From assembly GCA_947493695.1 (NCBI GenBank), contig CANLSF010000004.1, forward strand, positions 310,001 through 374,000: DNA of 64,000 nucleotides, read 5' to 3'. A program made the translations under genes and the position numbers. The stretch is from an uncultured Kiloniellaceae bacterium (GTDB taxonomy: Bacteria; Pseudomonadota; Alphaproteobacteria; Kiloniellales; Kiloniellaceae). Positions 6,582 through 30,928 of this stretch are shown here, one piece after another. Within the stretch, counting starts at the first letter, position 1. Every line of letters starts with the position of its first letter. The notes under the pieces were generated by a model. It was given only the letters and a program-made list of their open reading frames with translations, did no database searches and was not told the origin of the DNA.

Positions 6582-6607
6582 TTAATAAATCGTTAACAAA
6601 TTATTAA
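6582..6607. promoter_or_regulatory. Overlapping CtrA-type boxes
   Basis: Three TTAA blocks occur at 6582, 6593 and 6604, exactly 11 bases apart. The first two form TTAA-N7-TTAAC on the plus strand, the full CtrA consensus, and the last two form GTTAA-N7-TTAA, the same site read on the minus strand, so a central GTTAAC is shared. The cluster is 43-68 bases before the ATG at 6650, suitable for promoter control. CtrA is the alphaproteobacterial cell-cycle and motility regulator; its gene is not in this window. Confidence 0.6.
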
Positions 6608-6649
6608 TCTACCAAGATTTATCGAGGTAAAATCCGAGGAATTTCTCAT

Positions 6650-6886
6650 ATGAGTAAGTTAATTTCGGCGATTGCGTTGGCGACTCCAGTCATTTTGTTT
6701 TCGCAACCTTCTTACGCTTATCTGGATCCAGGTACCGGCGCATTTTTAATTCAAGCTCTACTTGGTGGCGTAGCTGGTGTGATGGTTGTCGGTCGTATTT
6801 ATTGGTCGAGGATTAAGGCATTCTTTCGGCGATCACCGGCTAAAACTCCCGAGACACTTGAGCCAAGTAGAATAGATGAAGTCTGA
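6650..6886 (+). CDS. Small YLDPG-type membrane protein
   Basis: A 78-residue protein of unknown function. Residues 1-23 form a signal peptide with a good cleavage site (PSYA before Y). The predicted mature protein starts YLDPGTGA, then has one Gly-rich membrane span (about 31-50) and a basic tail containing SRIKAFFRR, so it should be anchored with its N-terminus in the periplasm and its tail in the cytoplasm. GAGGA nine bases upstream supports the start. It overlaps the next gene by 11 bases and heads an operon with a methyltransferase and a sulfatase-like enzyme. A divergent relative with the same layout lies at 29288-29506 in a sulfotransferase operon. Confidence 0.82.
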   Translation: MSKLISAIALATPVILFSQPSYAYLDPGTGAFLIQALLGGVAGVMVVGRIYWSRIKAFFRRSPAKTPETLEPSRIDEV

Positions 6887-8267
6887 TCCTGGGTCGTTTC
6901 GGGATCCAAGCGGTCGGGTTTATAGCGATAATGGGCGTATATACCGAACGGTAAGTGCCGCTGCTGCGCAAGAATACAAGGCAGTGCGGGAAACAGGGCT
7001 GCTCGACGAGTTGACCGACGAAGGCTGGTTGGCGCGTACCGGGGAGGTCGATCCGGCGACAGTCGGCCTGGAGCCCGAGGCGGGCGGAATCGTCCTCGAG
7101 CATGAGCGGATCCCCTTTATTTCTTATTATTATGAGTGGTCGTTTTCGGCCCTTAAGGCTGCGGCACTGCTGCATCTGAAGATCCATCTGCGGGCATTGG
7201 CGAAAGGCGTCACCCTGAAGGACGCGACAGCTTACAATGTGCAGTTCCGGGGCGTGCAGCCGGTCTTTATCGATCTGCTGTCGTTTACGCCCTATGTCGA
7301 GGGCAGCATCTGGGAGGGGCACCGGCAGTTTTGCGAACAGTTCCTCAACCCCCTGCTCCTGCGCGCCCTTCTCGGGGTGCCGCATAATGCCTGGTGCCGA
7401 GGTTCCATGGAAGGCATCGACAGTGGCGAGCTAAGTCGTCTTTTGCCTTTACGCCGCAAGTTCAATCCGAAAGTCCTGATGCACGTCACCCTCCTTTCAC
7501 GGTTACAGGCCCTGGGCGCCGGTGATCGCGACGCGACGCTCGAGACCATGTCGATGCCCCCGTTGCTGCCACGCGACAAGTTTGTGCGCATGCTCGGAAA
7601 ACTTGAGACCTGGATTGAAGGTCTGCATCCCGCCGATACCGGGAAAACGGTCTGGGCCGACTATGAGACCGACAATATCTATGATTCTGAAGAGAACGCC
7701 GTTAAACACGACTTTATTGCCCGGACCGTCAAGGAGCATAAACCAGATGTGGTCTGGGACATTGGCTGCAACACGGGAGAGTTCAGCGAGACGGCGTTGA
7801 ATGCCGGGGCAGACTACGTTGTGGGGTTCGATTTCGACCAGAACGCCCTGGATTCCGCCTTCGCCAGAAGTACGGGTAAAGCGCTTGCCCTCCTGCCTTT
7901 GTATCTGGACGCAGTAAACCCCTCACCGAACCAGGGCTGGAACGAAGAGGAACGCAGCGGCTATCGTGGCCGGATCTGTGCCGATTGCGTGCTGGGTCTT
8001 GCGCTGATCCATCATCTGGCCATCGGTAAGAACATTCCCCTGAGATCGGTGGTGCACTGGCTGATGGATACGGCGCCGCTGGGTGTTGTCGAGTTCGTTC
8101 CTAAAAACGATTCCATGGTCAAACAGATGCTGGCCCTGCGGGAGGATATCTTTCCCGACTACACGGCAGAGAAGTTCGAAGGTTATCTCAAAGAACGTGG
8201 CGAAATTCTTGAAAAAAAGCAAACCTCGAAATCGGGGCGCTGTTTGTATCTCTACAAGCGCCAATGA
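6876..8267 (+). CDS. Bipartite NoeA-like SAM methyltransferase
   Basis: Protein of 463 aa with two parts. The C-terminal half is a class I SAM-dependent methyltransferase: motif I is DIGCNTGEFSETA at 295-307 and an acidic loop is VVGFDFDQNA. The overall type resembles proteins annotated as NoeA-related, after a rhizobial host-specificity gene. The N-terminal half has a segment D116-x4-N121 followed by F131-I132-D133, which looks like the catalytic loop and metal-binding Asp of aminoglycoside-kinase-like folds; this resemblance is my inference. There is no signal peptide, so it acts in the cytoplasm. It overlaps the genes before and after it (11 and 4 bases), indicating tight translational coupling. 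The substrate is probably an envelope glycan or lipid-linked precursor, unproven. Confidence 0.8.
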   Translation: MKSDPGSFRDPSGRVYSDNGRIYRTVSAAAAQEYKAVRETGLLDELTDEGWLARTGEVDPATVGLEPEAGGIVLEHERIPFISYYYEWSFSALKAAALLHLKIHLRALAKGVTLKDATAYNVQFRGVQPVFIDLLSFTPYVEGSIWEGHRQFCEQFLNPLLLRALLGVPHNAWCRGSMEGIDSGELSRLLPLRRKFNPKVLMHVTLLSRLQALGAGDRDATLETMSMPPLLPRDKFVRMLGKLETWIEGLHPADTGKTVWADYETDNIYDSEENAVKHDFIARTVKEHKPDVVWDIGCNTGEFSETALNAGADYVVGFDFDQNALDSAFARSTGKALALLPLYLDAVNPSPNQGWNEEERSGYRGRICADCVLGLALIHHLAIGKNIPLRSVVHWLMDTAPLGVVEFVPKNDSMVKQMLALREDIFPDYTAEKFEGYLKERGEILEKKQTSKSGRCLYLYKRQ

Positions 8268-9952
8268 CCACACAGGACGACAACATAACGCCTAATGCCA
8301 GACCCAGGCTGCGGGCCAATGGAATTCTGATCAGATTTGCCTGCGCTTTTCTGGCTCTTTTCGTGCCCTTTCTGAACTTTCTGATTTTCAACGATTACGT
8401 CGAAACCCGGTCTGAAATACTGCTCGTGGTTTCGGTGTTTTTTGCTGCGGCGCTTTTCGTGTCTCTGCTGTTCTTGTTTCAGAAAGTTTATCTTGAAGCC
8501 GTCCTCTACGGAGCAATCCTTGTTGTTTTCTGCGATTTCGCCTTCTCGGACCTGGTCAAGCAAGAGACTCTGCTCGCTTCCCTGGCTGTCCTGGGCGCGA
8601 TCTTCGTGGCCGCGGTTCTGATCAGGGTATTTCTCGCCAAGGCCTGCTGGCAGGCTTTGCTGGCCTTTCTGGTGGTCTTCCTGGTCACCGACATTCTGGC
8701 ACCGCAATCCGGAGGTGTTTCGTCGGCCGGGTCAGTCAATAAGAATGCTCTCGCCACTGCGGCGCAGCCGGGCTTACCACCGGTTATCCACATTGTTCTG
8801 GACGAACACATCGGATTGGATGGGTTTCCTGCGGATCAGCCTGGAAGTGCCGAAGCCCGATCCGAAATCATGGATTTCTATCAGCGTTGGGGTTTTCGGC
8901 TCTATTCCCGAGCCTTTAGCGAGGAGTTCTCGACATCCTATTCCCTGCAGAGCCTCTTTGCCGTTGAATCCCGGCGAGTTGTGCAGAAGGCACGTGGCGT
9001 AGCTTCAGCAGATACGAAAACGGAGGGCGCGGGTATCCTGCAGCCGTGGGAGGCCCGTGGCTACCGCTTCAAGGCGCGCGGAATCACCGATATCAATGTA
9101 TGCGACTACTTGCGGGTCGAAAATTTGGACTGCGGTAGCTATGACGCCTTATCCATCAGGATTTTGAAGAATCTCTCCTTCCCGATAACGCAAAAGGCAC
9201 TCCTGATCGTCGGGAACTATTTGAAACAAAGCACGCTTTACACGACCGTTTTAAACATCGAGGTTATTGCTTCGGACGCTGCAAAAGCTGTCGATATTGA
9301 CCTGCCGGTTTTTGAGGTCGAGGCCTATTCGCTCTCGACCTTCTCCAGCTATCAGTACATCGGCAATATGATTGATGATATTCCGGCAATATCAGACGGC
9401 GACTATCGCTTGTACCATCTGATAATTCCGCACTTTCCCTATGTGTTCGCGGAAAATTGCAGCGTTCGTGATGTCCGAACCTGGCAGAAAAACGACAACT
9501 TCAGGGTTGGTGATTTCAACACGACCGAGTCACGTGAGGAAAAATACGGGATGTATTTTCTTCAGACTCGTTGCCTTTATCGGAAGTTGGAAGTCTTCAT
9601 GCAGGCCTTACAGGCCGCTGGTCTGGATGAGCGTGCAATCCTGGTGTTTCATGGCGATCACGGGTCTCGTATCGCCATGCATTTACCGGCGAATGCGACG
9701 CGGGAGGAGATCACCCACAGCGACCTTGTCGATAACTACTCGACCCTCTTTGCGGTGCGGGCACCGGCGTTTGGCACAGGCGTCGATACCGCGCGGGTCT
9801 CGATGCAGGATTTATTCGCGTCCTTCGTGGCGAACGGCTTCAAAGACCTGCCGCCGTCCGAAGTACTCGAACGGCGGCCCATGGTGAACTTGCATGGCCA
9901 GCCGGAAGACCGCTGGATCGAAATGCCGGACTTCGGCAACGAGTGGCACTAA
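8264..9952 (+). CDS. Membrane-anchored sulfatase-superfamily enzyme
   Basis: Protein of 562 aa. About four to five membrane spans (residues 22-150) precede a periplasmic domain of the alkaline phosphatase/sulfatase fold. Visible are PPVIHIVLDEHIGLDGFP, the first metal-binding Asp region; FSEEFSTSYSLQSLF, where a Ser or Thr may be the nucleophile; and HGDHGSRIA, the second metal site. The combination of N-terminal spans and this fold is typical of phosphoglycerol and phosphoethanolamine transferases. There is no CxPxR motif of true sulfatases, so a phospho- or phosphoglycerol transferase is more likely than sulfate hydrolysis. It begins inside the stop of the methyltransferase gene (ATGA overlap) and ends the operon. 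Confidence 0.78.
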   Translation: MTTQDDNITPNARPRLRANGILIRFACAFLALFVPFLNFLIFNDYVETRSEILLVVSVFFAAALFVSLLFLFQKVYLEAVLYGAILVVFCDFAFSDLVKQETLLASLAVLGAIFVAAVLIRVFLAKACWQALLAFLVVFLVTDILAPQSGGVSSAGSVNKNALATAAQPGLPPVIHIVLDEHIGLDGFPADQPGSAEARSEIMDFYQRWGFRLYSRAFSEEFSTSYSLQSLFAVESRRVVQKARGVASADTKTEGAGILQPWEARGYRFKARGITDINVCDYLRVENLDCGSYDALSIRILKNLSFPITQKALLIVGNYLKQSTLYTTVLNIEVIASDAAKAVDIDLPVFEVEAYSLSTFSSYQYIGNMIDDIPAISDGDYRLYHLIIPHFPYVFAENCSVRDVRTWQKNDNFRVGDFNTTESREEKYGMYFLQTRCLYRKLEVFMQALQAAGLDERAILVFHGDHGSRIAMHLPANATREEITHSDLVDNYSTLFAVRAPAFGTGVDTARVSMQDLFASFVANGFKDLPPSEVLERRPMVNLHGQPEDRWIEMPDFGNEWH

Positions 9953-9963
9953 ATTGGAGCGTT

Positions 9964-10617
9964 TTAGATCCGCGAGCGCTTTTTCCGACTTAGACGGGCG
10001 GCAGAAAGTCCGATCAAACCCACACCGAACAAACTGAGTGTTGCGGGCTCAGGAACGGCGACCGGATCGCTATTGAGTGAGAAGAACAGGTTTAAGCTTG
10101 AGTTGCTGAAAGCGCCGGTGTTGTCATTCCGGGAAAGATTGGATCCGCCGTCATCACCAAGCCATCCCCATTCCGCAAAGTCTTGCGTAATATCCTTGAT
10201 CGACAGCCAGTAGCGGGTGTTTGCCTCAAGAAACAGGCCCGCACCCAGGTCCGCTTCGTAGTGAAAGACAAAACGAAAGTCGTCATCCTGCGTTAAGACC
10301 GGATCCAGAGTGATGTGGAACAGTGGCGTGGCGGCGGGCCGTGATCCACTATTCGCGTAGAAACCGATCTCAAAAGTAGTGCTGGGGGCGACCTTGCCCA
10401 TCCAGGTGACCGAGGTCACCGTTGAAGCCGCTGTTAGCGTGAAATCGTCAAAAGCGGTTCGATTCTTGGACAGAACATTAAAGCCGTCACTGCCGGTGGC
10501 CTTGGTGTTCTTGGTGCCAACCGGTCCCTGTTCGTAAATAACCGTCGCCGTGGCATTTGAGATGGTATAGGGCCCGATAAGCATCAGGCCGGCCAATAGG
10601 GTCAATAATATTTTCAT
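9964..10617 (-). CDS. PEP-CTERM sorting domain protein
   Basis: Secreted protein of 217 aa. An N-terminal signal peptide (1-24) is followed by a beta-rich body and a classic C-terminal PEP-CTERM tail: VPEPATLSLF, a hydrophobic span and the basic end RLSRKKRSR. In known systems exosortase recognises this tail and the protein is processed and exported, often alongside exopolysaccharide genes. No exosortase or EPS cluster is in this window. The body matches no enzyme family I can name. It is convergent with the sulfatase-like gene, whose stop is 12 bases away, and its upstream region carries 21-base-spaced direct repeats. Confidence 0.85.
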   Translation of the reverse strand: MKILLTLLAGLMLIGPYTISNATATVIYEQGPVGTKNTKATGSDGFNVLSKNRTAFDDFTLTAASTVTSVTWMGKVAPSTTFEIGFYANSGSRPAATPLFHITLDPVLTQDDDFRFVFHYEADLGAGLFLEANTRYWLSIKDITQDFAEWGWLGDDGGSNLSRNDNTGAFSNSSLNLFFSLNSDPVAVPEPATLSLFGVGLIGLSAARLSRKKRSRI

Positions 10618-11113
10618 TGCGCCGATTCCCCTGTAGTGGAGTGATTTATACGTCTGGCCGAAACTTCAGAACGACCGGGAATAGCCATAAATTCAGCTGG
10701 CGATGCAATGGAAGCGGAAAGAGAATCAATCGTTTGTCCATTTTGAAGACAATTTTGTCCAAAAAATAACAACACAACCTTGATGTGAATTTCTAAAGAC
10801 ACATGCGGATGGTTTTCGTCGTTTCAACAGCTTGGCAAACTTGCTTGAAATGCTGTGAGATAACTGCAAATGAAGGCGGGACTATGGAGTAACTCTTCGT
10901 CGCGGGGCCTGTCTTCGTGCGAGGTCGCTCACGGATCTGTCAATACACACCTGTAACTAGCAAGTCGACGTTCGGACATACTATGATATGTTGGATATGA
11001 ACAACCTGCAGCGGTAGCTATGCATTGACTGGCGGCGGAATTTCAGCTTCACCCTTCTATAGGGAATGAGCCGTCAAAATTGTAAAAGAGCCGGAATTAG
11101 AAGCTTTACTTGA
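10618..11113. other. Intergenic region between PEP-CTERM and 7TM-AraC genes
   Basis: 496 bases between two divergent genes with no supported ORF (a 62-codon minus-strand frame at 10614-10802 has no features of a gene). It contains the direct repeats at 10733-10761 and presumably promoters for both neighbours. Confidence 0.6.
10733..10761. promoter_or_regulatory. Direct repeats TTTGTCCA 21 bases apart
   Basis: TTTGTCCA occurs at 10733-10740 and again at 10754-10761. The 21-base spacing, two helical turns, is the arrangement commonly bound by AraC-family regulators. The repeats lie 116-144 bases upstream of the PEP-CTERM start, and the nearest gene on the other side encodes an AraC-type DNA-binding domain. 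Binding is inferred, not shown. Confidence 0.4.
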
Positions 11114-12913
11114 ATGTTTAGGTTAACGGCGTTGCTTGGAACGATTGCTTTACGATTGGGAATGGCGGGGAGAAGTGTCCTTGCGCTGATAGCGCTGTGC
11201 ATCCTGGCAGGGATTTCTGATGCACGAGCTGACGATAAAACCGGTCCCTGCGAGGTTTTCGATTCTGCACTGTCAGAGGCAACACAAGGACAGGACAGCC
11301 TTTCAAATTTGAATGAAGGGCGGCTCAAACCTCTATTCGCCGATTTCTTTCTCGATAAGTCCGGTCAACTCAGCCTGGATGAGATTGCTGAGCAGACATT
11401 CAACCCTGGTCACTGCCAGCGTGTTTTTGAAGCTCCAAAACCGCAAGAGGCGCTTTGGTTGCGGTTTTCGCTTTCCAACAAGCATGACACTGCAAAAACT
11501 TGGTTCGTAGCCTTCCTGGAGTTCATCTTCGACGAAGTCGCGCTGTTTGAAGAGAGCCAGCAAGGTCTCATTCCGAAAGCAATGAACGGTCGCGCGGTTC
11601 CCTTGCCGGAGCGGGCGGACACGGCGGTCAAGACGGGCTTTCCTTTGAGCATCGAAGCAGGCAGTCAGAAGGTTTTCTACCTGCAAATCACCGGTACATT
11701 TGCACCCAGACTGACACCCGTCTTAATGACACCCGAACTCTTCCGGGGCTGGTCAATCCTGACGCTGGTGATGACCGCAGTGTTCTTGGGATACGTCGGT
11801 GCGATAACTCTCTTTTGTGTGATTCTGTTTCGGCACGTCGAGGCGCGTTTCTACCAGTTTTATGCCCTCAACATGGCTTGCTTCTTCATATTTTCGTTTA
11901 TCTACGATGGCTGGCTCAGCAACTTTCTCGGTGTGACGTTACCGGTCACCACTATAATGCCCATCGCAGAGTTTACCGGAGGACTTGGAGTTCTCGCGAA
12001 TATTCAATATTGCAGAGTCCTGTTGAAGATAGACCGGGATCGACCGGGAGAATGGCGCCTCATCTGGGCCTTGTCGGCATTGACACTTATCACTACGGTT
12101 CTGTCCGTTATCGATCCATGGAATCTGTCGCTTCCCCTGCACCTCACATACTTTATCTGTCCTCTGGCATTGCTCACGGTCTCTCTGAAAAAAGCACGCG
12201 AAGGCATGCCTCAGGCCAAACCCGTCAGCGGTGCTCTGCTTTCCCTCACTCTCGGGCTGTTTGTCGCTGTCTACTTTTTTGCATTTCCCATTGAGATTTC
12301 CGAGGCTGCCTTCGCCCATGACCTTATCGTTTTGCGTCCACTGACCTGGGGGTATTACCTCGCCATCATGGGTGAGACGACCTTCATGATGATTGCCATT
12401 TCGACCATGGTGAAGGCGGCGCGGACGCAAGAGCAGATCGCAATTTCTGAGTTCGATGAGCTCAAGCGCGATGCCATCGCCGTTGAAGCAAAGCATCAGG
12501 AAATGCTGAAGGTCGCGAACGCGCAGATCGAAAAGCTAAAAGCCGGGATGATCGAGACGAGTGATCGGAAAACCGTGCCGTCTGCCGAGCAGCGAACGGT
12601 GGATCAGGCGACCGAGTGTATTCTTGACCATATATCAGAAGAAGGCTTTGGGGCGCGTGAGTTGGCAGATGCCCTCGGTATGAGCCTGAAGACGCTTGGC
12701 AGGCGTCTGAAACAAACCCACGGCATGACGACAGCGGTATTTGTGCGGTCTGTCCGTCTAAAGTTTGCCCGCGATCTTATTCTACTGCGCCAGCATCACA
12801 CGATTACAGAAATCGCATACGCCTCTGGTTTTTCCAGCGCTGGACATTTTGCCAAGATTTATCGCGAGGAATTTGGTGAGAGCCCAAGCGAGACCTTAAA
12901 ACTCGATCAGTGA
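11114..12913 (+). CDS. 7TM-DISM receptor fused to AraC-type DNA-binding domain
   Basis: Predicted membrane-bound transcription factor of 599 aa. Order of parts: signal peptide to about residue 39; periplasmic 7TMR-DISM extracellular domain (about 60-205, with ALWLRFSLSNKHD); seven membrane spans (about 208-432); a coiled coil (about 435-480); and an AraC helix-turn-helix pair (about 495-595) with LADALGMSLKTLGRRLKQ and ITEIAYASGFSSAGHFAKIYREEFGESP. The 7TM-DISM receptors usually feed histidine kinases or diguanylate cyclases, so direct coupling to DNA binding is unusual. Ligands of DISM domains are thought to be carbohydrates or similar. It is divergent from the PEP-CTERM gene, its likely target by position. 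Confidence 0.88.
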   Translation: MFRLTALLGTIALRLGMAGRSVLALIALCILAGISDARADDKTGPCEVFDSALSEATQGQDSLSNLNEGRLKPLFADFFLDKSGQLSLDEIAEQTFNPGHCQRVFEAPKPQEALWLRFSLSNKHDTAKTWFVAFLEFIFDEVALFEESQQGLIPKAMNGRAVPLPERADTAVKTGFPLSIEAGSQKVFYLQITGTFAPRLTPVLMTPELFRGWSILTLVMTAVFLGYVGAITLFCVILFRHVEARFYQFYALNMACFFIFSFIYDGWLSNFLGVTLPVTTIMPIAEFTGGLGVLANIQYCRVLLKIDRDRPGEWRLIWALSALTLITTVLSVIDPWNLSLPLHLTYFICPLALLTVSLKKAREGMPQAKPVSGALLSLTLGLFVAVYFFAFPIEISEAAFAHDLIVLRPLTWGYYLAIMGETTFMMIAISTMVKAARTQEQIAISEFDELKRDAIAVEAKHQEMLKVANAQIEKLKAGMIETSDRKTVPSAEQRTVDQATECILDHISEEGFGARELADALGMSLKTLGRRLKQTHGMTTAVFVRSVRLKFARDLILLRQHHTITEIAYASGFSSAGHFAKIYREEFGESPSETLKLDQ

Positions 12914-25372: not shown

Positions 25373-25466
25373 CGGGTCCAAGTTCCCTGATACAGGCCAA
25401 TTCTCAGAGCCTGCAAAACAACAAAAAATCTAAAAAAACACCGCTATTTCCTTGGGAGGAAAAACA

Positions 25467-26015
25467 ATGAAAACAATCGACAAGAGGCCAAAATTATCAC
25501 GCCGCGGGTTTCTCGCGGCGTCCAGTGGTGCCGCCGTGGGGGTGGCGCTGGTGACCTCTGCTGGCGTGGTCTCCTCGCCTAGCGGCGCCTGGGCAATGGA
25601 GGTCACGGCGCTGAAGCCGGAAACCATGGCAACCCTGATCCAGTTTGCACGCGATATCTATCCTCACGATCAGATCGCCGATCGGCATTACGCCAAGGCG
25701 GTCAAAGGTCATGACGAACAAGCCGCGAAGGACGCTAAACACAAACAGATCATTGAAGAAGGCATTGCAAACCTCGACCGCTTAGCCGTGGAAGCGGGCT
25801 CGCCGAACGGTTACAGCGACATGGGTTGGGAAGCCGATCGTACTGCCATCCTGAATCAAATCTCATCTTCCAACTTCTTCCAGACGATCCGGGGGAACCT
25901 GGTGGTCAGTCTCTATAACCAAAAGGAGATCTGGCCTCTGTTCGGGTTCGAAGGCGCGTCCGCTGACAAGGGCGGATACATCACGCGCGGTTTCGACGAT
26001 ATCGACTGGGTTTAA
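25467..26015 (+). CDS. Tat-exported small subunit of a GMC dehydrogenase
   Basis: Protein of 182 aa resembling the small subunit of membrane gluconate/fructose/sorbitol-type dehydrogenases. The twin-arginine signal SRRGFLAASSG is near residues 12-22 and is followed by a hydrophobic stretch and an AWA cleavage site. It has no cofactor of its own; in known systems it carries the large FAD subunit through the Tat pathway and stabilises it. The ATG at 25467 has GGGAGGA upstream. The large subunit gene follows after 36 bases. The usual cytochrome c subunit gene is missing downstream. Confidence 0.85.
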   Translation: MKTIDKRPKLSRRGFLAASSGAAVGVALVTSAGVVSSPSGAWAMEVTALKPETMATLIQFARDIYPHDQIADRHYAKAVKGHDEQAAKDAKHKQIIEEGIANLDRLAVEAGSPNGYSDMGWEADRTAILNQISSSNFFQTIRGNLVVSLYNQKEIWPLFGFEGASADKGGYITRGFDDIDWV

Positions 26016-26051
26016 GGCGCAGCGCGCCAATACGGAGGTGGAAGAAAAACG

Positions 26052-27623
26052 ATGACTGCGCCATACGAATTAAATGATGATTCTGTTGTTGTGGTAATAG
26101 GATCCGGTGCCGGCGGCGGCACACTTGGCAATGAACTGGCCCAAAAGGGCATCGATGTGGTCGTGCTGGAAGCCGGTGGACGGCACGAATACGACGAATT
26201 CACGAATGACGAATGGGCAAGTTTCGGCCAGTTGGCCTGGCTGGATAACCGGACCACCTCTGGCTCCTGGCTTGTCGCGCGGGATTTTCCGAACCTGCCG
26301 GCCTGGATCGTGAAGGCTGTGGGCGGTTCGACTACGCACTGGGCGGGCGCATCGCTGCGCTTCCAGGAGCATGAGTTCAAGGTCCGTACGACCTATGGCG
26401 AGATTGCCGGCGCCAACCTGTTGGACTGGCCGATTACCCTGAAGGAAATGGAGCCTTATTACGATAAGGCCGAAAACAAGATGGGCGTGACCCGGACCAA
26501 CGGGATTCCGGGCCTGCCGGGCAACAACAACTTCAAGGTCATGAAGGCAGGCGCTGATAAGCTGGGATATAAGGAATGCCATACCGGTCGTATGGCCATT
26601 AATTCTCAGGACCGGGATGGCCGGAACCATTGCCAGCAATCCGGTTTCTGTTTCCAGGGCTGTAAGTTCGGGGCGAAGTGGTCGACGCTTTACACCGAGA
26701 TTCCCAATGGCGAGGCCACCGGTAAGCTCGAGGTCCGCGCAAAGGCGCACGTGCTCCAGATTGAGCATGATGACAGCGGCAAAGTCACTGCTGTGGTCTA
26801 TGCCGATGCCGACGGTAATCAGCAGCGTCAGAAAGCCAGAGCGGTTTGCGTTGCCGGCAACTCCATTGAGAGCCCGCGTCTGCTTCTGAACTCCGCTTCG
26901 TCGAAATACCCGGATGGCCTGGCCAACTCCTCCGGCCAGGTCGGCAAGAACTACATGCGACACATGACCGGTTCGGTGTACGCGGTCTTTGACCGGCCCG
27001 TAAACATGTACCGTGGAACCACAATGGCCGGGATCATCCAGGACGAATCCCGCTTCGATCCCTCGCGGGGATTTGCCGGTGGCTATGAAATGGAAACCCT
27101 GTCGCTCGGCCTACCCTTCATGGCGGCGTTTTTACAGCCGGGGGCCTGGGGGCGTTCCTTTACCTCAGCGCTCGACGCCTACGATCATATGGCCGGGATG
27201 TGGATCGTTGGTGAAGATATGCCGCAGGAAAGCAATGCTATCACCCTGCACGGTGAATCGAAGGATCAGTATGGCTTGCCGGTACCGAACGTGCATTTCG
27301 ACGATCACCCGAACGATGTCGCCATGCGGAATCATGCCTACACGCAGGGGGCCGCGGTTTATGATGCGGTGGGTGCCACGCGGACCTTCCCGACACCACC
27401 CTACCCTTCGACCCATAACCTCGGTACGAACAGGATGAGTGCGAAGGCTTCTGACGGTGTCGTGAATGCTCACGGACAAACCCATGACATCAAGAACCTC
27501 TTTATATCGGATGGCAGTCAGTTCACGACCGGCGCCGCGGAGAATCCAACCCTGACGATCGTGGCACTCGCGATCCGTCAGGCGGACTTCATCGCCGCGC
27601 AGATGGCAAAAGGAGAGCTCTGA
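26052..27623 (+). CDS. GMC-type FAD oxidoreductase, large subunit
   Basis: FAD-dependent dehydrogenase of 523 aa. The FAD-binding motif VVVIGSGAGGGTLGNELA (about 13-30) is near the N-terminus, and the C-terminal catalytic part has THNLGTNRM and FISDGSQFTTGAAENPTLTI, the region with the active-site His and Asn. A four-Cys segment (CQQSGFCFQGC) is present, as in some gluconate-dehydrogenase-like enzymes. It likely oxidises a sugar or polyol in the periplasm after piggy-back export with the Tat-signal subunit encoded just upstream. The GGAGGTGG ribosome binding site is strong. A terminator follows at 27721, so the operon has two genes only. Confidence 0.88.
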   Translation: MTAPYELNDDSVVVVIGSGAGGGTLGNELAQKGIDVVVLEAGGRHEYDEFTNDEWASFGQLAWLDNRTTSGSWLVARDFPNLPAWIVKAVGGSTTHWAGASLRFQEHEFKVRTTYGEIAGANLLDWPITLKEMEPYYDKAENKMGVTRTNGIPGLPGNNNFKVMKAGADKLGYKECHTGRMAINSQDRDGRNHCQQSGFCFQGCKFGAKWSTLYTEIPNGEATGKLEVRAKAHVLQIEHDDSGKVTAVVYADADGNQQRQKARAVCVAGNSIESPRLLLNSASSKYPDGLANSSGQVGKNYMRHMTGSVYAVFDRPVNMYRGTTMAGIIQDESRFDPSRGFAGGYEMETLSLGLPFMAAFLQPGAWGRSFTSALDAYDHMAGMWIVGEDMPQESNAITLHGESKDQYGLPVPNVHFDDHPNDVAMRNHAYTQGAAVYDAVGATRTFPTPPYPSTHNLGTNRMSAKASDGVVNAHGQTHDIKNLFISDGSQFTTGAAENPTLTIVALAIRQADFIAAQMAKGEL

Positions 27624-27986
27624 CATCCTTGCGAACAGGCGAGTGCCTGAGTTCAGGCGTCCAGGAGTGAAATTGGCTGCTTGAGCTTTTTCCTGGCAAA
27701 ATGAAAGTGATCGTGTTCTGGGCCGGTTCTCTTTTGAGAGCCGGCCTTTTTTCTTTCCCGATCACTCGGCATGCGCCCGTGAGAGCGAGTGATTACGCTT
27801 TTGCGAAACTCAAACTCTCTGTTGCGCAAGCATCTCTGACACAAATCGGTCACGAGAATTGGCTATATCTTTGTTGAAAATTGCCCCGGTTGTCATCATC
27901 ATCGGAAACGCTTTCGGCTATGGGGATTTGGTTGATTTAAGCAATTTAAACATCGGCGCACGTAGACTCCTTTATGGAATTTAGTA
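27624..27986. other. Intergenic region
   Basis: 363 bases holding the terminator of the GMC operon (27721-27752) and the upstream region of the arylsulfotransferase gene. Two TTAA words at 27937 and 27946 are five bases apart, not the CtrA spacing. No ORF is supported. Confidence 0.55.
27721..27752 (+). terminator. Rho-independent terminator of the GMC operon
   Basis: An 11-bp stem GGCCGGTTCTC / GAGAGCCGGCC (one G-T wobble) with a TTTT loop is followed by six T. It lies about 100 bases after the dehydrogenase stop codon. Confidence 0.85.
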
Positions 27987-29300
27987 ATGAACTTCGTTCA
28001 GCGCGCCGGTATTTTTTATTTATTTGCAGTTCTGTTTGTCGGTTGGGGCGTTGCTATCGGAAAGTACCAGTTCTTTCCTTACGCCGTACTTAAAGACGTT
28101 CAGGATTTTGTCGTTGGCGACCCAACCGAAGACACAGATGTATTTAGCAAGCTCAGAAACGATTTCGATATCGCACCAGAGCGTCAGCTGCATAGAGTCG
28201 TGCCTTCGCCGGGGCGTAACTTCGTTGAATTGCCAATCGAAGGACTGCGGGAGCGACGCGACCTGCCCCGCCTGTTTCTCAAGGAGGGTCAGGCACCCGG
28301 CTATCGCGTAATCTTCGGAGCGTTTGATTTTGAAGAGCACTTCTGGGGCGCGATCCTTCTTGATAACAGGGGTGAGATTGTTCACCGCTGGCATTTGACC
28401 ACCGAGGATCAGCCCTTCAACGAGACCGACGATATCCTCAAGAACCTCTACGGCGTGTCGATCCTGCCTGATGCCTCGATCATCTTCACCATGCAGGAAA
28501 AGAGCGGCGGTATCGTCAAGGTCGATGCCTGCAGCCAGCCTGTCTGGACGCTTGAGGGGAAATATCACCATACGATTTCCCTGACCGATGAGAATTCCTT
28601 CTGGACCTTCGGCGGCAAACAGAAAGATTTCGATCACCTTTTGCACCATGTCGACGTCGACAGCGGGAAAATCCTCAAGACCATCGACATGCAGGAAGTA
28701 CGGCTTAAAAACGCCGATACACATATCTTTGACCTGCAGGTGGAGAATGGTGTGGCCGACGCCGTTCATGGGAACGACATCGAAGCCCTTACCGCTGAGA
28801 GAGCCGCCGCCTTCCCGGGATTCGAGAAAGGCGATCTGCTGATTTCTTTCCGGACCACCAATCTGGTTTTCGTTCTGGATCCCGAGAGTTTGAAGATCAA
28901 GTGGTGGCGGGTCGGTCCCTGGGATCGCCAGCACGACCCGGACTGGAATGCGGACGGTACGTTCTCGGTGTTCAGCAACAATGAACGCGGCGTCGGGAAA
29001 CACTCCAATATCATTGTCATTGACCCGAAGACCTTTGCTTTTCGCACTTTACTCGACGGCGAAAAGTACGATTTCCGCTCCACTTTCAACGGCATGCATC
29101 AGATCACGGATCACGGATCGCTGCTGATAAGCAGTGGCCTCCAGGGTCGTATGTTTGAAGTGGACCAGCACGGTGAAGTCATCTTCGACTTCATCAACAG
29201 CTACTCCTGGGAACATGACCGGGCTTTACGCGTTTCCGAAGCCCGCTATCTCGAGAGTAACTTTTTCAGCTTTGAAGGATTTCCATCATGCGAAAACTGA
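27987..29300 (+). CDS. Arylsulfotransferase family protein (ASST-like)
   Basis: Protein of 437 aa with one N-terminal membrane anchor (about 8-25) and a beta-propeller body matching the arylsulfotransferase family, which in known members moves sulfate between phenols in the periplasm without PAPS. Typical features are the repeated GEIVHRW-type strand, NLYGVSILPDASIIFTM, HHTISLTDENSFW and GMHQITDHGSLLISS, with conserved His residues in the propeller. It heads a four-gene unit: its stop is overlapped by the next gene start. Neighbours include a PAPS-type sulfotransferase, so sulfate transfer to envelope material is a reasonable reading. The acceptor is unknown. Confidence 0.82.
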   Translation: MNFVQRAGIFYLFAVLFVGWGVAIGKYQFFPYAVLKDVQDFVVGDPTEDTDVFSKLRNDFDIAPERQLHRVVPSPGRNFVELPIEGLRERRDLPRLFLKEGQAPGYRVIFGAFDFEEHFWGAILLDNRGEIVHRWHLTTEDQPFNETDDILKNLYGVSILPDASIIFTMQEKSGGIVKVDACSQPVWTLEGKYHHTISLTDENSFWTFGGKQKDFDHLLHHVDVDSGKILKTIDMQEVRLKNADTHIFDLQVENGVADAVHGNDIEALTAERAAAFPGFEKGDLLISFRTTNLVFVLDPESLKIKWWRVGPWDRQHDPDWNADGTFSVFSNNERGVGKHSNIIVIDPKTFAFRTLLDGEKYDFRSTFNGMHQITDHGSLLISSGLQGRMFEVDQHGEVIFDFINSYSWEHDRALRVSEARYLESNFFSFEGFPSCEN

Positions 29301-29506
29301 TTGCCTTTCTGATTGGCGGCCTTGTAATGACGGCCGCAGGAGCCGCGCAGGCATATGTTGGCCCCGGTCTTGGCCTCGGCGCGCTGGGTGCTATTCTCGG
29401 AGTTGTTCTCTCGGTGGTTCTGGCGCTCTTTGCCATCTTCTGGTACCCGCTGAAGCGTATGTTCAAGAAGAAAGCACCGCCCCGTAAGGCTGAGAAGGAA
29501 GCGTGA
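29288..29506 (+). CDS. Small membrane protein, YxxPG type
   Basis: A 72-residue protein. It has a signal peptide (1-22, AAQA cleavage) and a predicted mature N-terminus YVGPGLGLG, then one Gly/Val-rich membrane span (about 30-52) and a strongly basic tail (LKRMFKKKAPPRK). The layout is the same as in the protein at 6650-6886: mature start Tyr-x-x-Pro-Gly-x-Gly, single span, W near the membrane exit and a basic tail. It overlaps the arylsulfotransferase gene by 13 bases and the next gene by 4. Function unknown. Confidence 0.8.
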   Translation: MRKLIAFLIGGLVMTAAGAAQAYVGPGLGLGALGAILGVVLSVVLALFAIFWYPLKRMFKKKAPPRKAEKEA

Positions 29507-29880
29507 ACTACTTTCTCGTTAGTCTTGCCAGCTTTATTGCGGTTGAGCTTTTTGTCCGCTTGCCGGTGATTGATCAGGTTCATCAGCTCTTCGGGACCAC
29601 GCATAAAGCGGGACACATCATAACTGCGCGTGCTGTCTCCGATCATTGGAAAGAGCGTGTGATGCTGCGCTACGCGCGGGAGATTATGCTCAGCAGTGTA
29701 AAGCTCGTGATATTCATGACGGGCGTGCTGTGCCTTGCTGTTCTGCCTGCATTTCTGGTGAGAGAGCTTGTCGATCCGGGTCTTTCGATCGAGGCCCTTT
29801 TCTCCAGCTGGACGGCAGTCGGAGTCTCCCTCGTCGCTGCGACAGCCTATTATGTGCTGAGAGCGCGCTTTGCCCGATAG
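29503..29880 (+). CDS. Hypothetical inner-membrane protein
   Basis: Protein of 125 aa with three likely membrane spans (about 3-20, 66-87, 97-118) and a polar cytoplasmic or periplasmic segment between the first two (TTHKAGHIITARAVSDHWKER). No family is recognised. It starts with GTG overlapping the stop of the small YxxPG gene and overlaps the sulfotransferase gene start by 11 bases, so it is part of the same operon and perhaps of one membrane complex. Confidence 0.72.
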   Translation: MNYFLVSLASFIAVELFVRLPVIDQVHQLFGTTHKAGHIITARAVSDHWKERVMLRYAREIMLSSVKLVIFMTGVLCLAVLPAFLVRELVDPGLSIEALFSSWTAVGVSLVAATAYYVLRARFAR

Positions 29881-30928
29881 CGACTATGGAACCACGTCGA
29901 AGCTGTTGCATCGGCTGGCCCTGGCAACGCCGTTCGTAGCGCAGGCCTCCCATGACCTGGAGAGCATGCTCAACAGGCAGAGCAGCGGCGCGCGGAATGG
30001 GCGACATGTGTTCGTTGCCGGGCTGGCACGAGCCGGAACCACGGTTCTGATGCGCAGTCTCTATCGGTCAGGAGAGTTCCGCTCCCTCACCTACCGTGAC
30101 ATGCCCTTTGTTCTGATGCCCAAGACCTGGTCGGGCATATCTTCGCTTTTTCGACGACACAAAGCAGAGGAAGAGCGCGCGCACGGCGATCGGGTAATGG
30201 TGAATTTCGACAGCCCGGAGGCTTTCGAAGAGGTGTTCTGGCGAAGTTTTTGCGGTGACGAATATATTTATGACACTGCATTGAAACCTCACCACCCGGG
30301 CGAAGAGACGATTGAGCAGTTCCAGCGTTTCGTCGGTAATGTCTTAACATCAAACGAGAGTGACGGTCGGGAGCGTTATCTTTCCAAGAACAACAATAAC
30401 CTCTTGCGCCTTCCCGCCATTGCCGAGGCCTTTCCGAAGGCTGTGATCTTTATCCCCTTTCGTGAACCGTTTCAGCACGCATTTTCGCTGAAGAAACAGC
30501 ACGAGCTTTTCCTTTCGACTCATGCGCAGGACCATTTTTCACTTGATTACATGAATTGGCTCGGCCATCACGAATTCGGCGGCAACCATCGGCCTTTCCG
30601 TTTCGGTGAGAGCGGTCTGACGCTTGAGGATTACAGACCGGATAGCCTTGAATACTGGCTCTGTTGCTGGGCGGATAGCTATGCCTATGTGCTCAACCAC
30701 CTGCCGGCTGCCGCGCGCCTCATTTCCTATGAAGACCTTTGCGGAACGACCAATCGAGAGCGGTCGCGTCTGCGCGAACATGCGGGTCTGGCCCTGGAAG
30801 GAGACGCAAACCTGTTCCAGTTCGCTAAGGCAAAATCCCATGCGACACCGGAAGTGAATCTCATAGTCAAAACGCGGGTTTGCGAGATCTATTCAGCCCT
30901 TCAAAACGCCCGTCCATCGGCTGGTTGA
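29870..30928 (+). CDS. PAPS-type sulfotransferase
   Basis: Sulfotransferase of 352 aa, cytoplasmic. The 5'-phosphosulfate-binding loop is VAGLARAGTTVLMRSL (about residues 48-63), and the 3'-phosphate-binding strand and helix is VIFIPFREPFQHAFSL (about 183-198). The family moves sulfate from PAPS to carbohydrate, lipid or peptide hydroxyls. The TTG start at 29870 lies within the end of the previous gene. It closes the arylsulfotransferase operon, so two unrelated sulfate-transfer chemistries, one cytoplasmic and one periplasmic, are encoded together with two small membrane proteins. The acceptor is unknown. Confidence 0.82.
   Translation: MPDSDYGTTSKLLHRLALATPFVAQASHDLESMLNRQSSGARNGRHVFVAGLARAGTTVLMRSLYRSGEFRSLTYRDMPFVLMPKTWSGISSLFRRHKAEEERAHGDRVMVNFDSPEAFEEVFWRSFCGDEYIYDTALKPHHPGEETIEQFQRFVGNVLTSNESDGRERYLSKNNNNLLRLPAIAEAFPKAVIFIPFREPFQHAFSLKKQHELFLSTHAQDHFSLDYMNWLGHHEFGGNHRPFRFGESGLTLEDYRPDSLEYWLCCWADSYAYVLNHLPAAARLISYEDLCGTTNRERSRLREHAGLALEGDANLFQFAKAKSHATPEVNLIVKTRVCEIYSALQNARPSAG

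Follow-up and report, generated by a model that had tools for sequence, protein, structure and literature searches.

The window analysed here, a 64,000-nucleotide stretch from an uncultured Kiloniellaceae bacterium (contig CANLSF010000004.1, positions 310,001 to 374,000), carries at positions 27987–30928 of its + strand four overlapping genes, A, B, C and D, which are a conserved set across distantly related proteobacteria. By sequence, A resembles the arylsulfate sulfotransferases (ASSTs), and D appears to be a sulfotransferase of the type that depends on 3′-phosphoadenosine 5′-phosphosulfate (PAPS). We favour, at a probability of roughly 0.6, the reading that the products of the four genes act as a single envelope machine, which carries sulfate from the cytoplasm to the periplasm in two chemical steps. 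The basis of this relay is the linkage of the genes, the co-occurrence and co-inheritance of A and D, the fusions of C with D, the conserved active sites and the predicted fold of A, while we infer the sides of the membrane, the direction of transfer and the use of the product of D as donor for A.

Operon structure and genome context

Gene A (27987..29300, + strand, 437 aa), a putative membrane-anchored ASST-like sulfotransferase assigned from Pfam, alignments, AlphaFold2 and Foldseek, overlaps by 13 bases with gene B (29288..29506, + strand, 72 aa), which encodes a small YxGPG (YVGPG) protein recognized by comparison with its homologues. A 4-base overlap leads to gene C (29503..29880, + strand, 125 aa), a predicted three-span membrane protein, and one of 11 bases to gene D (29870..30928, + strand, 352 aa, TTG start), a PAPS-type sulfotransferase of the Sulfotransfer_3 family judging by Pfam, alignment and a TPST-like profile match. 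The earlier note had described an operon of ASST-like, YxxPG, three-span and PAPS-type genes, and all four frames are present as it stated. The source genome (6.46 Mb in 20 contigs) has a single match to PF14269 and a single D gene. Its adenosine 5′-phosphosulfate (APS) kinase domain was also found (E 1.4e-70), so that PAPS would be available in the cell. The closest named relatives, each 82% identical in A, are an uncultured Kiloniellaceae metagenome-assembled genome (MAG) and Denitrobaculum tricleocarpae R148; a scan of genome contigs returned three named loci.

Conservation of the four-gene set

The profile used to find D comprised 11 sequences taken from D genes with A as neighbour, which biases the survey towards such loci. 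D was found in 14 of 385 genomes sampled from the class (E ≤ 1e-10) and in 18 of 398 sampled from the phylum (E ≤ 1e-20); with four common to both samples, these are 28 different genomes, and the gene neighbourhoods of all 28 were viewed as hidden Markov model (HMM) maps on stop-to-stop frames. A adjoins D in 22 of them, lies elsewhere in two and was undetected in four, and is thus present in 24/28. B is clearly found near D in 24/28 and weakly in two more, and C or its long form C′ is near D in 25/28 (22 by HMM, three by eye). Three of the loci with an adjacent A depart from the usual layout: one has a DUF3137 gene between A and B (G108), one has A behind D and not in front of it (G465), and one is without C and has only a weak and divergent B (G313).

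Nine of the 28 genomes (G000, G003, G032, G241, G260, G262, G273, G377 and G379) are themselves represented in the D profile, and apart from the window's own they had first been found through A. When these nine are left out, A adjoins D in 13/19 genomes, and among the 14 genomes that were new in the phylum sample it does so in 11. Within the family, 12 of the 23 genomes searched have D: 4/4 in the window's own genus, 8/8 in a second genus and 0/11 in the rest. All four genes are present in 11/11 family loci beyond the 28 genomes (G001, G002 and nine of the second genus), of which G001 is a row of the D profile and the nine second-genus loci are not. A occurs with D in 9/9 of these second-genus loci, whose middle gene is the long C′ in seven and the short C in two. 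The bias in how the D loci were found lowers the weight of one number, and the loci outside the D profile (11/14 and 9/9) lead to the same conclusion. The complete set is present even in a genome of 1.2 Mb (G262). At locus L040 (JAOZKI010000043.1, a Lysobacterales MAG), a tRNA-adenosine-deaminase-like gene, identified by eye, lies between A and B.

The same 385 class genomes were searched with a profile of A (E ≤ 1e-5), which gave 29 matches. Of the 14 class genomes that have D, 13 also have A, compared to 29/385 overall (hypergeometric P = 1.7e-15), and the co-occurrence persists without the nine profile genomes (4/5 compared to 20/376, P = 2.9e-5).

Active sites of A and D

A matches PF14269 (E 6e-31, 108.3 bits, cut-off 27) and, just above its threshold, PF05935 (E 1.5e-5, 24.7 bits, cut-off 24.2). 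The AlphaFold2 model (predicted local distance difference test score, pLDDT, 79; predicted template modelling score 0.77) has an N-terminal helix at residues 3–27 followed by a beta-propeller. When the model was compared with solved structures by Foldseek, ranks 1–9 were Cpz4 and the E. coli ASST (EcASST), at probability 1.00 and template modelling (TM) scores of 0.52–0.55 by query length, with Cpz4 best (9kf4, E 1.7e-14; 9kf6) and EcASST (3ett, 3ets and 3elq) following. A profile of A likewise placed 9kf4/9kf6 first among solved structures (E 1.6e-15), and the single sequence of A gave no PDB match at E ≤ 1.

The accessible text of PMC13426309 gives the EcASST active site as His252, His356, Asn358, Arg374, Thr501 and the sulfated His436. 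By motif, A has a corresponding set in H194/H195, H261-x-N263, S287-x-R289 and Q-H316-D, where H195 (or H194), H261, N263, R289 and H316 were matched to EcASST by order and spacing, Thr501 lies outside the set, and H316 is equated with His436 on the basis of a match of positions 313–380 of the A profile to 434–512 of 3elq. H194, H195, H261, N263, R289, Q315, H316 and D317 are invariant or near-invariant across 17 aligned homologues. The five-residue set (H195, H261, N263, R289 and H316) is complete in 31 of 34 full-length rows, counted without the partial A genes of L060 and L040 and with L058, whose position 261 reads R in the larger alignment and H in another, taken as an exception. These data suggest that A is an ASST-family enzyme that keeps its active-site residues, with the propeller predicted in the periplasm.

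Two further observations concern A homologues. At L055 (G095, positions 9849–11153), one of the exceptions among the 34 rows, all five active-site positions of an ASST homologue are changed (S, R, T, P and Y). Its neighbourhood showed neither B nor C nor D, and it is likely, from its sequence, a dead or repurposed propeller. In contrast, the sets at L093 (G500), L106 (G014) and L109 (G004) have two A genes each with the active-site motifs intact in both, which raises the question of whether the two serve different acceptors.

D matches PF13469 Sulfotransfer_3 (E 9e-13, 49.4 bits, cut-off 27) and has the expected PAPS-binding motifs, with a 5′-phosphosulfate-binding loop GLARAGTT (R54, G56 and T58), K173, and a 3′-phosphate-binding pair R198/S206. 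R54, G56, T58, R103, D107, S115, K173, N175, R198, S206 and H233 are identical in 32/32 aligned rows. By alignment, both A and D keep their catalytic residues, so the loss of these from one of the two enzymes, which the earlier note had named as a refutation of its relay, is not seen. Against solved structures, the profile of D matched TPST1 and TPST2 best (E 1.1e-9), in three collinear stretches that are local and with few Sulfotransfer_3 structures to compete, and 2zq5 came next. K173 aligns opposite the lysine of the NKDPF motif of the TPSTs, which is catalytic in these Golgi enzymes. By family and PAPS loops, D is probably a PAPS-dependent-type sulfotransferase.

Four other residues of D were considered as a possible sign of coupling to A. 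Y75, H105, E117 and E121 are replaced non-conservatively only at L064 and L094, both without A. E117 is Asp at L063, where A is without R289, and at L097, where A is present, and all four residues are kept at L061, L065, L092 and L099, which are without an adjacent A. The pattern is at most a weak sign and was not used for our conclusion.

Predicted membrane topology of B and C

B starts with a signal-peptide-like segment ending in AQA. Next comes a Tyr, where the mature N-terminus is expected, and then a single membrane helix with a basic tail (WYPLKRMFKKK) behind it; the cleavage site was assigned by eye (AxA). Ala followed by Tyr directly after the hydrophobic signal is found in 29/29 listed B homologues (two are weak and lie on the opposite strand), in 9/9 B proteins of the second genus and also in the B of this window. 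When a pattern allowing any residue after the Ala was applied to the fetched loci, it returned Tyr only. No Pfam model exceeded its cut-off for B or for C. An anti-phage system was considered and set aside, as PADLOC gave no convincing match (best E 0.011, for B).

The sequence of C contains three hydrophobic spans. The positive-inside rule predicts an outer N-terminus, a long, K/R-rich cytoplasmic first loop with an SDHWKE motif, a short, K/R-poor outer second loop, and a cytoplasmic C-terminus with a basic tail that runs into D. As the loops put the C-terminus of C in the cytoplasm, D would be cytoplasmic too. In two lineages, L046 and L040, C and D form a single reading frame. In the long form C′, the outer loop contains an additional beta domain, and its model from L049 is confident (pLDDT 92.6) but resembles nothing in the PDB (best E 0.39). 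An Oxa1/YidC-like insertase (EMC3/TMCO1/YidC), proposed for C from its helix order, therefore finds no support in the fold of this C′ model. A search with the single sequence of C recovered six of its 58 relatives.

A proposed two-step sulfate relay

In the relay that we propose, D, held at the inner face of the membrane by C, would take sulfate from PAPS made by APS kinase and place it on a membrane-associated carrier, which would expose the resulting sulfate ester on the periplasmic side. From there the sulfate would pass to the active-site histidine (His316 by motif) of A, whose membrane anchor would leave the propeller facing the periplasm, and A would transfer it to an envelope acceptor, with B as a tiny accessory of this periplasmic step. 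Such a relay is the simplest reading because PAPS is made inside the cell, ASSTs need an aryl sulfate, and a membrane protein is fused to D twice. The chemistry itself has a precedent in the biosynthesis of caprazamycin, a Streptomyces antibiotic whose sulfation uses a triketide pyrone carrier. There, the PAPS-dependent Cpz8 makes a phenol sulfate that then serves the ASST Cpz4 as its sulfate source, as given in the accessible text of PMC4257720. Both systems combine a PAPS-dependent enzyme with a PAPS-independent ASST, and Cpz4 is the nearest solved structure to A; in contrast to the antibiotic pathway and its polyketide carrier, A here has an N-terminal membrane helix, and B and C are frequent partners. 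Of the relay put forward in the earlier note, the parts that hold up are the conserved pairing, the catalytic residues, the predicted placement of D inside and A outside, and the kinship with Cpz4, whereas its hand-over, carrier and acceptor stay conjectural.

Several results weigh against the relay. No A was found anywhere in four of the 28 D genomes (G154, G464, G534 and G796), and in two others it lies away from D: G257 has B, C′ and D together with A elsewhere, and G288 has B and D with two A genes elsewhere. In two of the four genomes without A, an alkaline phosphatase (AlkP)-superfamily enzyme is nearby. The adjacent A of G313 is without R289. Among the 29 class genomes with A, 16 are without D, so A-like enzymes can act alone. 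The genomes are not independent, the 14 class genomes with D falling in 12 families, and the correlation between pairwise distances of A and D (r 0.91, 23 adjacent pairs, 0/2000 permutations), computed with no control gene, shows joint inheritance only. The A model is of moderate quality (TM score 0.55 against Cpz4), and it also matches many propellers of other kinds (758 PDB chains at E ≤ 0.001). Finally, no carrier was found, the flanks of the D loci being unconserved (31 loci clustered; none of the 14 largest clusters occurs in more than six lineages) and type III polyketide synthases (PKSs; PF02797) being present in 7/28 D genomes.

The loci without A are varied. G154 has a three-span protein with D, and G464 has C and D at a contig end. 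At L099 (G796, positions 9491–12469), a PF01663 phosphodiesterase-type enzyme (E 1e-31) lies between B and C′, and D is divergent; by sequence, it is possible that an AlkP-superfamily enzyme substitutes for the ASST here. At L094 (G534, positions 6594–10060), D differs at Y75, H105 and E117 and has as neighbours a small YIDPN protein and a PF00884 sulfatase with a membrane anchor (E 7e-48). In some loci from beyond the class (L092, L093, L094 and L098), asparagine-synthase-, carbamoyltransferase- and radical-SAM-like genes were recognized by eye, a hint of surface-polysaccharide regions.

The nature of the putative carrier

Neither of two routes to the carrier gave a general answer. The clustering of flanks yielded no shared biosynthetic neighbours in more than six lineages that would name a product, and a type III polyketide carrier in the manner of caprazamycin is not general given its occurrence in 7/28 genomes. 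In the source genome, a type III PKS (PF02797) lies ∼59 kb from the operon, so a polyketide carrier is still possible there. Since the flanks are unconserved and the full set occurs in the 1.2-Mb genome, the carrier role probably falls to a common metabolite or to one of the set's own proteins.

Among the parts of the set, the Tyr of B is the only exposed phenol that never varies, and B itself might therefore be the sulfate carrier, a version of the relay to which we give only a small chance. D, whose best solved matches are protein-tyrosine sulfotransferases, would in this case be a tyrosylprotein-type enzyme that sulfates the Tyr of pre-B on the cytoplasmic side of the membrane. C would help to hold or insert pre-B, and signal peptidase would leave sulfotyrosine as the first residue outside, where A would use it as aryl-sulfate donor and pass the sulfate on. 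If so, a genetically encoded phenol would replace the small-molecule carrier.

Alternative explanations

The alternative that survives best, although we regard it as rather improbable, is that A and D sulfate different sites of the same envelope product with no hand-over, A having another donor. Linkage and co-occurrence would suit any joint pathway, and the 16 of 29 class genomes in which A occurs without D make another donor possible. What this does not account for is that ASSTs take aryl sulfates and not PAPS as donor, and that the donor of Cpz4 comes from a PAPS enzyme; in the clustered flanks, moreover, no biosynthesis genes recur that could make such a common product.

It is less probable again, and in our view unlikely, that D is a tyrosylprotein-type enzyme whose end product is sulfated B, regulatory or structural in role, with A editing or exchanging its sulfate; the set would then make a sulfated surface peptide and be no relay. 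In favour of this are the best solved matches of the D profile to TPST1/TPST2 (E 1e-9, three collinear stretches) and, in every listed B, a Tyr that follows Ala where cleavage is expected. A parallel is RaxST of Xanthomonas, which, according to the accessible text of PMC6637879, sulfates a peptide precursor before export. Like D and B, RaxST and RaxX pair a PAPS sulfotransferase with a small exported peptide that has a key Tyr, but that text describes RaxX as secreted with a double-glycine leader and mentions no ASST, whereas B looks membrane-bound with a predicted Sec-type signal. Moreover, the likeness of D to TPST1/TPST2 consists of local matches in a family with few solved relatives, so that these enzymes may win by default. 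The Ala-Tyr pair is also shared by the YLDPG protein encoded elsewhere in the window, whose translated neighbours include no sulfotransferase by eye.

Least probable is that A scavenges environmental phenol sulfates and D is a linked detoxifying enzyme with no relay between them, a role similar to that suggested for EcASST with urine metabolites in the accessible text of PMC13426309. This reading leaves unexplained the C–D fusions, the full set in the 1.2-Mb G262 and in many families, and the specific D subfamily.

Implications for envelope ASSTs

The periplasmic ASST of E. coli CFT073 shares with A its fold family and, by motif, its active-site residues. It differs in its operon partners, which are DsbL and DsbI in the accessible text of PMC13426309, compared to B, C and D here. 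The literature searches made returned no account of this chemistry in a widespread envelope cassette of four genes that includes B and C. With a dedicated PAPS enzyme as companion in many families, membrane-anchored ASSTs would have an internal sulfate supply, and the set may offer a concrete answer to the open question of what feeds the ASSTs of the cell envelope. The relay would give these enzymes a testable job, namely envelope sulfation without PAPS outside the cytoplasm, and the four-gene cassette could be used for experiments in cultured, non-pathogenic bacteria.

Neighbouring genes and the other YxxPG locus

Between the upstream gene and A lies a terminator-like hairpin of 12 pairs with a T run (27720..27747, + strand), in a stretch with a folding energy of −24.3 kcal/mol; over the whole region, such sites are no commoner than in shuffled sequence (5 compared to 4.5). 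Just upstream of the operon (window positions 25452–27623) are genes that look by eye like a twin-arginine-type small subunit and a GMC oxidoreductase, and a similar pair is upstream in the same-genus locus L042.

The operon had been called a second YxxPG locus in the earlier note, which agrees with the genome search: the B profile (E ≤ 0.01) has two matches in the genome, both inside this window and both themselves rows of that profile. The first YxxPG locus (window positions 6650–9952), related in this part and separate from the four-gene operon, begins with the YLDPG gene (6650..6886, + strand, 78 aa), in which SYA precedes the YLDPG motif, and continues with a 463-aa protein that has methyltransferase matches below cut-off only and a 562-aa membrane protein with a sulfatase match below cut-off (E 0.0073). 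The neighbours of YxxPG proteins may be periplasmic ester-transfer enzymes whose folds are unrelated.

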